From a virus, in the IMG/VR virus record IMGVR_UViG_3300032246_002701, positions 1 to 64,000 of that record: DNA of 64,000 nucleotides; one strand, 5' to 3'. The notes under the pieces are model-generated. The model ran no database searches and was not told where the DNA came from. It saw only the letters and a program-made list of their open reading frames with translations. Both the position numbers and the translations under genes were made by a program. Below, one piece after another: positions 5,401 to 25,291 of this stretch; the first letter of the stretch is position 1; every line of letters begins with the position of its first letter.

Positions 5401-5928
5401 GTGACCAGAGTCAGTGGCACGGGCACAATCAGTGGACTGACATTAACGGGAAACATTACAACATCAGGTAACCTAACACTAGGCGGAACACTAGACAAGG
5501 CCAGCAGTAGCACATTTGGTATTGCTCAAGTAGACGGCACAACCATCACAGCCAACGCAGGTGTTATCAGTGCTGTACAGACTGGCGTTGATAGTTTTAC
5601 TTCTCTAGTTACCACACAGATTACCACATTGTCTGTTGATATGACTAACGGTCCAACTATGATATTTTGGCAACCCAGTGCCAACGGCAATAGAGCAATT
5701 ACTTTAAGTGACTTTACCGCAGGACGCAGAGTTAAAATCTTTATTACTCCGCATCGTGCCCAAGACATATTCACATTTACCGGCGTCACAGCCAGTCAGT
5801 GTAGTAACGGTGTAAACACCTTTGTGCTGGGCGGAGGTGGTGTAGCACAGTCAAGCATGATGATTGAAGTATTATCAACTACTACTGCTACTAGCGGCGT
5901 ATGGATATTTGGCTTTGGAAGTCAATAA
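2437..5928 (+). CDS. Large tail-fibre-like structural protein
   Basis: The largest protein in the window, 1163 residues, rich in Gly, Ser, Thr and Asn, with many short repeats built on GTG, SG and TLTGN-type units, as in long fibrous phage proteins. Residues around 300-330 carry a SLGSPTKRWKSIYLG motif common in phage fibres, where repeated 'rendered scene' modules lead to a trimeric shaft. The C-terminal part, after SSSTFGIAQVDG near 1030, looks like a compact tip domain. There is no signal peptide or catalytic motif. The DNA is repetitive (GGCACAG, CAGTGG), consistent with fibre-gene evolution by internal duplication. A host-recognition or decoration role is inferred. Confidence 0.75.
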   Translation: MAQDRYTNNSTGYEHPQESNLLNIHKAMTYNAAGEPVLRVLTYSSGGGMDLTALSVVTTSSYLGGSLAYDNTTGVFTFAPANELKNLSVGNDPNADPADTNLQTILGSVNGADIVLEPLNGSVRVSALKVGSGGNILNTTLNIEAYITTYELVSIVDYSTGTNDALVIGTYGNINGVLAPWTVFELASGISGIPISAIEINDRLTGAGIVPSTVKDRGAGGPGGGDTSTWNTYVIVNLDLTGLGQVLPLPGAVFDLTRPLNKANLNIQSSQGTDIFLDSTGLGDVIVNTNILPVTNNISSLGSPTKRWKSIYLGPGTIYVFDETLGKDLSIGARDGLLYVQNGAGLSVGEFTFIDNQIRIANSARDIIIGSTGATASVVFNRAIKVKNNLGALAFEVDRNGITSIFTPSGADPNKGTLNIIGTVSGLTQPRGTLYDGTLLHLTAQDGKSSRISSDSFGTGVYPLYAGRAARGTVSAPTAVQLNDILSRLTAAGYGTSRYMTGISRFDAVASENFTDTASGTKFVFSTTPVGNTATQVSATVDSTGITFAGAVDADAGITFRLGSRLTYFPTPVGQTNYYLKSNGTTMSWQPLPVTENPIIYKGSWNADSNTPALSTSTPVGLVSGWEFSISASGTQNIGNGPQYYAAGGFVIFNGTIWEYIPPVTGVSSIQFDGGSVQTGVVQVQSTDITSTLNTGSIANAKLANSSITVNAGTGLLGGGTVALGSSITLSNNGVVGVSAGTGIGVSGTGTVTISNTGVLTVTGTNHISASVVSGAVTVTSDATINATNNTIALRDSVGGLEAKDFTATQDASIRSDHGPFNYGTLSYSDTGIMADFSYSVNSYNQVVLQNRNAGAAASTNYIVSNNLGTSSTYYGEFGMNSSGFSGSGSFALPNAVYLAAVSSDLVIGTLGNNSLRIVTNNSGTDAVSINSSGIATFANQIVGSISGSANNVRQNLTAGTGISFSMGTTYNGSAAITISATNTATGTVTRVSGTGTISGLTLTGNITTSGNLTLGGTLDKASSSTFGIAQVDGTTITANAGVISAVQTGVDSFTSLVTTQITTLSVDMTNGPTMIFWQPSANGNRAITLSDFTAGRRVKIFITPHRAQDIFTFTGVTASQCSNGVNTFVLGGGGVAQSSMMIEVLSTTTATSGVWIFGFGSQ

Positions 5929-23613: not shown

Positions 23614-23760
23614 ATGTACCAGTTTCGAGTTTGGGTTCGTCTTAACCAGTATCAAACTGCTGATATTGTGATTAATGCCAACAATGATTGGGAAGCCAAA
23701 CTACTCGCAGAAGGCATGTACGGTCAAGGTAATGTGCTTAATTATACTCGAATTAATTAA
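23614..23760 (+). CDS. Small phage protein (48 residues)
   Basis: The first gene behind a perfect sigma70 promoter encodes MYQFRVWVRLNQYQTADIV and ends in a TAATG overlap with the DUF2452 gene. AAAAGG lies upstream of the ATG. A beta-rich start and a helical middle (DWEAKLLAEGMYG). Early expression and coupling support it as a real gene. Function unknown. Confidence 0.6.
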   Translation: MYQFRVWVRLNQYQTADIVINANNDWEAKLLAEGMYGQGNVLNYTRIN

Positions 23761-24260
23761 TGAGTGAAGAAGAGGCTGACAGGTCAAATTTAGCCAAAGG
23801 CCAAAATAGTTTCGATATTGCACCAGGGGGATCTTTGGTGCAATTTTTTAACAGAAACTCCACCCCTTATCCTGTTGAAGTAGGCGGCCCAAAGTTTGAC
23901 CTGGTCCCTGTGACCAAACAGAAAGATGTCATGCTCAATGTGGCCAGATTACATGCCCGCCAAGAGTATGATCGAATTATGCAATTGGTTTCAGTGCTGC
24001 AAGAACAGGCCGCTCAAATTAAACGTCGGTTAGATGTAACAGATCAAGTTTACGCAGCGGAATATCAGTTTCAAGTTCATCACGGTAGTTGTTATTGGTT
24101 GGCCGTTGACACCAGACGGGAAAAGACTATACTATGTCATATGGGTCCTACAGAGTGGAGTACAGGTGCACCTGATCACTACGAGTATTTGGCCCGCGTT
24201 AAGTTTTTGGGAGACCATACTTGGATTGAAGTGGACCATGATGGCAACCCAATATGGTGA
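23760..24260 (+). CDS. DUF2452 family protein
   Basis: 166 residues. From about 55 onward (LHARQEYDRIMQLVSVLQ, then FQVHHGSCYWL and GPTEWSTGAPDHYEYLARV) the sequence follows the DUF2452 pattern, a family also present in eukaryotes (human C1orf50) whose function is unknown. The central helix is followed by a beta region with conserved His, Tyr and Trp. The gene is transcribed from the sigma70 promoter at 23540, so early. Its stop codon overlaps the first base pairs of the tmRNA-like element behind it. Confidence 0.75.
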   Translation: MSEEEADRSNLAKGQNSFDIAPGGSLVQFFNRNSTPYPVEVGGPKFDLVPVTKQKDVMLNVARLHARQEYDRIMQLVSVLQEQAAQIKRRLDVTDQVYAAEYQFQVHHGSCYWLAVDTRREKTILCHMGPTEWSTGAPDHYEYLARVKFLGDHTWIEVDHDGNPIW

Positions 24261-24410
24261 ATAAATAAAAGTATTCGTTGAAGGTAGAAGTATAAGGGCA
24301 AGACGCGGCTCTCGGATGCCGCCATCTTCACCAGAAGCACATACGCCGATAGCAGGCGACTAAGGCAGCTATGCGAAATCTTAGTTTTATGTGTGCTTCT
24401 GATGGAGATG
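24257..24410 (+). ncRNA. Degenerate permuted tmRNA, acceptor copy 1
   Basis: 24257-24333 aligns along its whole length with the acceptor piece of the intact tmRNA at 24694. It has a T-arm-like hairpin (GCGGC 24305-24309 / GCCGC 24318-24322), but its loop has 8 bases and lacks TTCGANT. The 3' acceptor strand CATCTTC (24323-24329) plus ACCA pairs with GGAGATG at 24404-24410. The intervening sequence forms a 10-bp stem (24334-24343 / 24390-24399). No tag-coding domain follows; a small gene does. Probably a decayed duplicate, though compensatory pairing is retained. Confidence 0.6.
24358..24398 (+). repeat. 41-base direct repeat, copy 1
   Basis: Identical over 41 bases to 24650-24690. It forms its own hairpin (ACTAAG / CTTAGT) and ends in TGTGCTT, which pairs with AAGCACA behind each CCA end. 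In copy 1 it is the 3' part of the intervening sequence. Confidence 0.9.
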
Positions 24411-24434
24411 CCAACTCCACCATAAGGAGATTTT

Positions 24435-24581
24435 ATGAAGAAAACATTTTTATGTGAACTTGAAAAAGATGACAAAGTTTGTAAAGCCATTGTAAGAGCC
24501 AATGATATGGAAGAAGCAGTTAGAAATTTATCACTAAATTGGCGAGTAATTAGCATAAAAGAACATCAAATCTCTTTATGA
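24435..24581 (+). CDS. Small protein inside the tmRNA locus (48 residues)
   Basis: ATG preceded by a strong AAGGAGA site encodes MKKTFLCELEKDDKVCK and a helical C-terminal half ending in HQISL. It lies where the coding piece of the first tmRNA copy would be expected, so it may have replaced it. No similarity recognised. A truncated 5' tmRNA fragment begins 8 bases after its stop. Confidence 0.55.
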   Translation: MKKTFLCELEKDDKVCKAIVRANDMEEAVRNLSLNWRVISIKEHQISL

Positions 24582-24588
24582 TGAGCCT

Positions 24589-24650
24589 GACCAGGTTTCG
24601 ACGTGGTGATCAGTATGAACCTGGAGAATCGGCAAAGCAGAAGCCGTTAG
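24589..24650 (+). pseudogene. tmRNA 5'-domain fragment
   Basis: 62 bases identical at 60 positions to the intact tmRNA 5' domain (24845-24906), including GGTTTCGACG. The 5' acceptor strand is missing and the tag reading frame is absent; the fragment runs straight into copy 2 of the 41-base repeat. It keeps a perfect CCAGGTT / AACCTGG pairing that is imperfect in the intact copy. Confidence 0.75.
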
Positions 24651-24690
24651 ACTAAGGCAGCTATGCGAAATCTTAGTTTTATGTGTGCTT
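24650..24690 (+). repeat. 41-base direct repeat, copy 2
   Basis: Same 41 bases as 24358-24398. Here it joins the tmRNA 5'-domain fragment to the functional acceptor piece, and its TGTGCTT end pairs with AAGCACA (24772-24778) behind the CCA. Confidence 0.9.
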
Positions 24691-24693
24691 TTG

Positions 24694-25026
24694 GTGAATT
24701 AGTAGAAGAATTCGGTGAAGGGAACAGAAAAGCATTGCGGACGCGGGTTCGATTCCCGCCTCCTCCACCAAAAGCACATTCTTTGAGGTCTTGGTCGTTA
24801 CCAGCGTAGCAAAAACGGCGACAGAGTGTGTTTTTGGAGGGGGAGACCTGGTTTCGACGTGGTGATCAGTATGAACTTGGAGAATCGGCAAAGCAGAAGC
24901 CGTTAGGGTTGGGATTACCCGGCCGTAGAAGCAAATCAAGTAAATGCAAACGATGCATATTTCGGAGAAACACGCCTAGCGGCCTGATCTCTGCGGGGTT
25001 TGATCAACCTTGTTACCAAATAGATC
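24694..25026 (+). ncRNA. ssrA: Circularly permuted (two-piece) tmRNA
   Basis: The gene order is acceptor piece, intervening sequence, coding piece. Acceptor: T-arm GCGGG-TTCGATT-CCCGC (24743-24759), 3' strand CTCCTCC, discriminator A and encoded CCA (24768-24770). The 5' strand GGAGGGG (24836-24842) pairs with it over 7 bp, one G-U. The intervening 24771-24835 forms an extended stem. GGTTTCGACG follows the acceptor. CATTGC in the acceptor piece can pair with GTGGTG in the coding piece, as helix P2. The tag frame 24946-24987 reads ANDAYFGETRLAA then stop, and TGATCT / AGATCA closes a P5-like stem behind it. A pseudoknot-like CGGC...GCCG stem precedes the tag. It would rescue stalled ribosomes and mark proteins for Clp degradation. 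Confidence 0.9.
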
Positions 25027-25054
25027 AGAAAGGCTCTTTGGGGCCTTTCTTTTT
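25027..25054 (+). terminator. Rho-independent terminator of tmRNA
   Basis: An 8-bp stem (AGAAAGGC / GCCTTTCT) and a T run directly behind the tmRNA coding piece. Confidence 0.9.
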
Positions 25055-25132: not shown

Positions 25133-25291
25133 ATGAAACAGTCTAAGTTGGTTTCTAAGTTGTATAAGGCTTGCATCGACCATGATACAGAAACAATTGC
25201 TGAACTTCGTAAAAAAGAGTTCGCCAAGATACTGAAACGTAAGGCCGAGGGAAAAGCATTTACACCTCGATGGACCGTGGTTAAAATTTAA
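25133..25291 (+). CDS. Small basic protein (52 residues)
   Basis: A strong AAAGGAGGG site precedes ATG; the product [18 protein letters not shown]... is Lys-rich and helical, with a C-terminal TPRWTVVKI. It is monocistronic: a 14-bp terminator follows. Such short, very well translated basic proteins are frequent in these phages and may bind nucleic acid or host proteins. Function unknown. Confidence 0.65.

Follow-up and report, generated by a model that had tools for sequence, protein, structure and literature searches.

The window analysed here is a stretch of 64 kb out of a 65.5-kb virus record, and the locus of interest is a tandem array of three circularly permuted tmRNA units, all on the plus strand, which we call A, C and B in their order along the DNA. 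Unit A (24270-24410) is a relic consisting of an acceptor piece and an intervening segment (IVS), unit C (24411-24650) is a relic consisting of an IVS and half a coding piece, and unit B (24709-25052) is a complete tmRNA gene. Relic C, the third unit, was overlooked in the preliminary description of this locus. The only tmRNA match of an Rfam search in the locus is the functional gene (24677-25052), relics A and C receiving no score. The whole array is preceded by the phage late-promoter-like motif AATAAATA (24260-24267, plus strand) and would presumably form one transcript.

In gene B the acceptor piece (24709-24770) lies before the coding piece (24839-25052), which carries the tag ANDAYFGETRLAA (24946-24987), ending in AA, and a terminator at about 25030-25052. 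The tRNA-like domain scores above the Rfam threshold (RF04321, 106.4 bits over 24709-24987; RF01850, 94.4 bits). The intervening segment between the two pieces (IVS-B, 24771-24838) is of the same family as the IVS of two other loci (L108 and L200), even though the acceptor stems differ. The real acceptor stem of B has G3-U70, the alanine identity pair, which a script recovered in 232 of 233 permuted genes among the matches listed, the sole miss being B itself, misread out of register. The half hairpin in front of B (24684-24696) is perfectly complementary, over 13 nt, to the CCA end and IVS start of B (24766-24778), and could therefore compete with the normal IVS stem of this gene.

The acceptor piece of relic A (24270-24333) ends with ACCA (24330-24333). 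A self-comparison of 3 kb aligns it to the functional one with 72% identity (90 columns, E 5.7e-7), in agreement with what had been noticed before. Its T-stem (24305-24309/24318-24322) closes a loop of 8 nt (TCTCGGAT, 24310-24317) which is indeed not canonical. The 3' acceptor strand CATCTTC (24323-24329) forms 7/7 pairs with the 5' strand GGAGATG (24404-24410), the sole remainder of the coding piece, but the one G-U pair is placed at position 2, i.e. G2-U71 and A3-U70 replace G3-U70. Relic A thus lacks the identity pair despite its 7-bp acceptor stem, has 7 nt left of the coding piece and no tag, and gave no tmRNA match in an Rfam search up to E 5. The segment enclosed by the acceptor strands (IVS-X, 24334-24403) is a three-way hairpin whose loops, GATAGCA and GCAGCTATGCGAAAT, contain complementary AUAGC/GCUAU stretches that might form a kissing pair. 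The 169-nt fold of the first copy has a z value of -3.35, and an alignment of IVS-X and acceptor from three phages plus the half copy shows 7 pairs changed on both sides, a number reached in 3 of 500 shuffles. The compensatory pairing originally proposed for this copy is therefore borne out. The suggestion that the segment might be a new RNA with an acceptor-like fold was right in that the fold is real and carries compensatory changes, but what folds here is an old tmRNA copy, namely its acceptor piece together with its IVS.

Two related phages bear on the origin of relic A. In L001, a segment 92% identical to IVS-X over 78 nt lies directly upstream of a complete tmRNA, beside the same neighbouring gene as in the window (60% identical as a protein, 64% for the gene itself), and a late-type promoter motif precedes relic A in both L001 and the window. 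In L205, where the gene upstream of the tmRNA differs from that in the window, a segment 89.6% identical over 77 nt serves as the genuine IVS in a complete tmRNA gene. It follows that the 41-base repeat, whose two copies (24358-24398 and 24650-24690) are identical at 41/41 positions and extend to 47 nt at 96%, exists as described but is part of a tmRNA intervening segment, namely its 3' half; the second copy of the repeat is a half IVS-X fused to the coding piece of relic C. The upstream relic in L001 and the true IVS in L205 also support the earlier proposal that tmRNA genes were duplicated and recombined here. As L001 is an independent contig, an assembly error is unlikely for relic A. A search of 84,980 bacterial and archaeal genomes with an IVS-X pattern gave 0 matches.

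Relic C has the same order as an intact gene, from the end of an acceptor piece through an IVS to the start of a coding piece (CCAACTCCACCA, TAAGGAGATTTTATG..., ORF48, ...TCTCTTTATGAT, GAGCCTGACCAGGTTTCGACG...; 24411-24650). The last 12 nt of the acceptor end (CCAACTCCACCA, 24411-24422) agree by eye at 11/12 positions with CCAGCTCCACCA of L123, L160 and L128. The 160-nt intervening segment (24423-24582) has arms of 13 bp (24421-24433/24568-24580) that resemble those of L229 and L248 and enclose ORF48, an open reading frame of 48 codons (24435-24581). The first 68 nt of a coding piece follow (24583-24650); over the last 62 nt (24589-24650) these match the functional gene (24845-24906) at 60/62 positions, as previously reported. 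The fragment stops before the tag, being cut at 24650 and joined to the half IVS-X that leads into B, and only 4/7 acceptor pairs can be formed with 24583-24589, therefore C cannot be a tmRNA. The preliminary description placed a 48-residue gene where a coding piece should be; ORF48 sits between the arms of the IVS instead. The element GCCAACTCCACCATAAGGAG was also considered as a repeated intergenic element and rejected: it has one copy in the window, and its matches in L145 and L016 consist of an SD and start codon only.

The slot, as we would define it, is the stretch from the CCA end of the acceptor piece to the first base of the coding piece. In a slot ORF the SD lies in the 5' arm right after CCA, the ATG lies within at most 14 nt of the IVS start and the frame is open to the 3' arm. 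ORF48 has this anatomy: its SD AAGGAG (24424-24429) is in the 5' arm just after CCA, with a pairing probability of 1.0 according to a script, its ATG is 12 nt into the IVS and its TGA is in the 3' arm. The codon score of ORF48 is +7.8, as opposed to -22.0 +- 9.5 in 2000 composition shuffles, none of which scored as high, and it is these codon statistics that speak for a coding frame. Homologue searches with the 48-aa ORF48 protein found none, and neither did a search with a 276-aa protein of the window.

In order to compare the locus with other permuted genes, IMG/VR was scanned for CACCA followed by GGTTTCGAC at 70-100 nt and then at 111-171 nt, each scan giving at least 120 matches. The numbers in this paragraph refer to the matches listed: 245 IVS were extracted, of which 12 did not pass the 7-bp acceptor test and were left out; 202 of the remaining 233 are unique. 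Slot ORFs are found in 63 of 228 permuted tmRNA loci and amount to 53 unique ORFs of 22-48 codons, 42 of them in 11 multi-member families and 11 single; the rule behind this list (a length of 20 aa or more, together with an SD of 4 or more or with a related ORF) was picked after viewing the sequences. They are more common in loci with long IVS (50/109, second scan) than in those with short IVS (13/119, first scan). An SD-led frame whose ATG lies within the initial 30 nt and which stays open as far as the 3' arm occurs in 41 of the 202 unique IVS, as compared to 3.6 +- 1.7 (largest 9) in 100 interior shuffles. When the SD is disregarded, ATG slot frames are found in 78/202 IVS, many of which are chance frames since the shuffles give 30.7. 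In 24/53 ORFs a TGA stop lies one base ahead of the coding piece; in 8/53 the stop lies 12-13 nt earlier, and in 21/53 beyond the IVS. A scripted ARAGORN batch detected a tmRNA in 22/127 loci, and a separate tmRNA search of chosen loci was used instead; it found a tmRNA with a tag around the slot ORF in 15/15 and 37/40 cases, 33 of 37 tags ending in AA.

The slot ORFs are conserved within families and change mainly at synonymous sites. pS exceeds pN in 57 of 58 same-length pairs within families, although the pairs are not independent, and the slot ORFs of L118 and L129 differ by 12 synonymous changes and 1 non-synonymous change. Purifying selection is thus seen in slot-ORF families other than ORF48. 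Over the families 133 of 274 changes fall at codon position 3 (p 1.4e-7 for a frame fixed in advance), but the most variable phase of IVS families without an ORF reaches a similar fraction (0.48), so that this measure is weak by itself. For 8 query families, tblastn over the collected loci found homologues outside the slot, several of which lie directly upstream of a tmRNA (L190, L218, L180, L192, L298 and L284). By inspection, the slot ORF of L240 belongs to the same family as a small gene (25133-25291) just downstream of the tmRNA of the window, and the free homologues that link this family resemble the latter gene in both sequence and position. The slot ORF of L272 matches PHROG 13558 (9.8e-13), related sequences are present in L208 and in Xanthomonas phage X1 (L333), an isolate, and L272 and the window have a common downstream gene order, as judged by inspection, with phosphoesterase and glycosyltransferase genes. 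L208 was itself tried as a long-IVS gene and turned out to be a tRNA-like stretch in front of a tmRNA. The window also has a free-standing gene of 48 aa (23614-23760) with relatives in L214 and L293 (79%) and in L088 (62%, also beside a tmRNA). In L088 a folded leader with a T-arm-like hairpin (5465-5570, -40.9 kcal/mol for 106 nt) is placed between the neighbouring gene and the acceptor piece of the tmRNA.

Permuted tmRNA is present in 8 of 9 isolate phage loci, but none of the 7 that were read in sequence has an SD-led slot ORF, therefore the class rests on metagenomic contigs. A tblastn search of isolates with three slot ORFs and ORF48 found nothing, and a short slot-ORF pattern, which was narrow (AAGGAG plus fixed spacing), had 0 matches in 84,980 bacterial and archaeal genomes.

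The promoter-like motif recurs at other loci. Among the matches listed, 34 of 226 permuted tmRNA loci have AATAAATA at a distance of 40-160 nt upstream from the acceptor piece, as opposed to 2 of 210-221 loci in each of three bins farther away. The T4 late consensus TATAAATA has 9 copies on the plus strand and none on the minus strand between 7109 and 60769 of the window, a bias that, as far as the sequence tells, would fit T4-like late promoters. A late motif 5'-TATAAAT-3' is given in the accessible part of PMC9004378.

Taken together, we read the locus as a tandem of three permuted tmRNA genes that arose by duplication and recombination, in which ORF48 fills the IVS of C, a slot that phages use widely; we put the probability of this joint reading at about three in four. 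Of the three tandem copies, B alone would still yield a tmRNA, while relic A would have shed the alanine identity pair and the coding piece, and relic C most of its acceptor piece, the acceptor pairing and the tag, with the cargo ORF48 retained. The order of events by which the array was built up is something we infer, and ORF48 is presumably expressed and under selection. Tandem self-duplication of tmRNA parts was searched for in 127 loci (L001, L003 and L084 are one contig, L002 is the window, and L321, from a later scan, is not included); among the matches listed, a second acceptor piece together with a coding-piece fragment occurs in the window alone. The other matches were terminators, tRNA-like ends, coding-like repeats and a 46-nt repeat in L131, where part of the tmRNA 3' end recurs (93%) about 0.2 kb downstream of the first copy in an attachment-site-like manner.

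Copy C and its junctions, including the one at 24650, are present in this metagenomic contig alone, and common assembly k-mers are longer than the 41- and 62-base repeats, so an assembly chimera of strain variants, in which these repeats joined the tmRNA loci of two phages, has to be considered for part of the array. On the other hand, relic A stands upstream of a complete tmRNA in the independent contig L001, L321 has a similar tandem in which the upstream copy is decayed, and ORF48 and both arms of its IVS are intact and in register, which makes a chimera distinctly unlikely. The contents of the slot could be questioned in a similar way, ORF48 being either a frame that arose by chance or an ordinary free-standing gene which happened to end up between two remnants of tmRNA; the empty homologue searches would fit this, as would the shuffled IVS, which yield an ATG slot frame in 30.7 of 202 cases when the SD is disregarded. 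We consider it very unlikely, as the SD and the stop are each contained in one of two complementary 13-bp arms, exactly in register with CCA and with the coding piece, the same arrangement is found in intact genes (L118, L229 and L248), and the in-frame codon score beats the shuffles.

Relic A, in turn, might have been retained because it has a separate function, with the T-arm/acceptor/CCA fold serving as a processing signal or a decoy tRNA-like RNA in the precursor leader. The complete acceptor pairing, the fold z value and the 7 double-sided changes in three phages agree with such a role, and so does the position between a late-promoter-like motif and a complete tmRNA in both the window and L001. 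A CDS-less tmRNA of the DS6A type is defined by a tRNA-like domain that contains both the alanine identity pair and a TTTCGAC segment; relic A has no such segment, and G3-U70, kept in nearly all permuted genes, is gone. Furthermore, L001 lacks the entire T-arm and its CCA has turned into TCA. There is a precedent in mycobacteriophage DS6A, the CDS-less tmRNA of which inhibits the host tmRNA according to the portion of PMC11915505 available to us, but on balance we regard a separate function of relic A as unlikely, and prefer to see it as a decayed tmRNA copy.

As regards the slot ORFs in general, the RBS lies in the 5' arm of the stem that joins the two tmRNA pieces, with the stop usually in or near the 3' arm, and the slot gene would be transcribed together with the tmRNA precursor. 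We presume that the slot ORFs are expressed. As the RBS is paired in the folded precursor, translation would start either from the unprocessed precursor or from the segment freed by RNase P and a 3' nuclease. Because 21 of the 53 ORFs have no stop within the IVS, the precursor would be favoured for these, and the freed segment fits them poorly. The predicted pairing of the slot SD averages 0.92 in 25 chosen loci as compared to 0.59 in 8 window genes, a small and differently sized control (genes with a recognisable SD out of 10 tried); these folding predictions suggest that translation of the slot ORF may compete with the folding needed for tmRNA processing. We speculate that the IVS of phage permuted tmRNA is a general gene slot in which ribosome loading on the ORF and tmRNA maturation would exclude each other, the freed segment itself would be a minimal mRNA, and the cargo outlives decayed frames: new tmRNA copies would arrive, old frames decay and the cargo stay behind as ordinary small genes. 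This broader proposal is tentative and, in our judgement, somewhat doubtful. Copy C of the window and L321 would be stages of this process. In L321 a decayed permuted tmRNA (L321:8504-9600, minus strand) lies 1.9 kb upstream of an intact one that contains a slot ORF itself. The decayed copy has an acceptor piece whose T-loop is not canonical (RF04321 24 bits, E 0.033; RF01849 E 0.00028), a slot of 1021 nt and a mutated coding-piece start. By reading, this slot has three ORFs of about 60, about 220 and 44 codons. At the sequence level, L321 parallels the window, the frame being decayed and the cargo open.

Other unusual intervening segments were seen during the survey. In L155 (6894-7016) a permuted tmRNA located within a tRNA array has an IVS that is occupied by a complete tRNA-Asn gene, which is the only tRNA among the 233 IVS of the matches listed. 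One IVS of 87 nt is found in L100, L103, L176, L189, L190 and L203 (87/87 identical in L100 and L103), where it sits between four different acceptor stems, both strands of which have changed together. Perhaps this pattern reflects quasi-palindrome template switching or modular exchange.

It is useful to compare these features to known systems. The intervening segments of split tmRNAs are usually regarded as spacers to be thrown away. Should a sizeable fraction of phage loci have conserved protein genes there, annotation has missed a class of phage small proteins and, if our reading is true, a single RNA is both matured to tmRNA and used to translate a nested gene, a situation open to direct tests. 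The locus further provides a specific explanation of how tandem relics of tmRNA genes originate and of what is retained. Phage two-piece tmRNA is treated in PMC9004378 and two-piece tmRNA in PMC3985003, of both of which parts were accessible. Gene B fully conforms to the circularly permuted type (RF04321/RF01850), from which A and C derive, but the IVS of the known two-piece tmRNA is non-coding, while here and in the 63 of 228 phage loci among the matches listed a protein gene lies inside. In the open-licence literature we came across no description of protein genes located in the IVS of a tmRNA. The accessible part of PMC11915505 does not contain the word 'ORF' and mentions no protein ORF in an IVS; it describes one tRNA-Ala gene in the IVS of a permuted tmRNA (in a nominally archaeal MAG) and one repetitive element in a tmRNA IVS. 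These resemble the slot ORFs as cargo inside the intervening segment, but they are single cases of an RNA or a repeat, as opposed to protein genes. The same part of that article reports homing endonuclease genes in group I introns of tmRNA, which, like the slot ORFs, are protein genes nested in a precursor segment that is removed. The slot, however, has no intron and no splicing and is bounded by tRNA-type processing sites, and the slot ORFs are not endonucleases, as 22-48 codons are too short. Finally, the CDS-less RNA of DS6A, as far as it is described in the accessible text of PMC11915505, is like relic A a phage-borne tRNA-like remnant without a tag, the difference being that relic A has neither the TTTCGAC segment nor the alanine identity pair.
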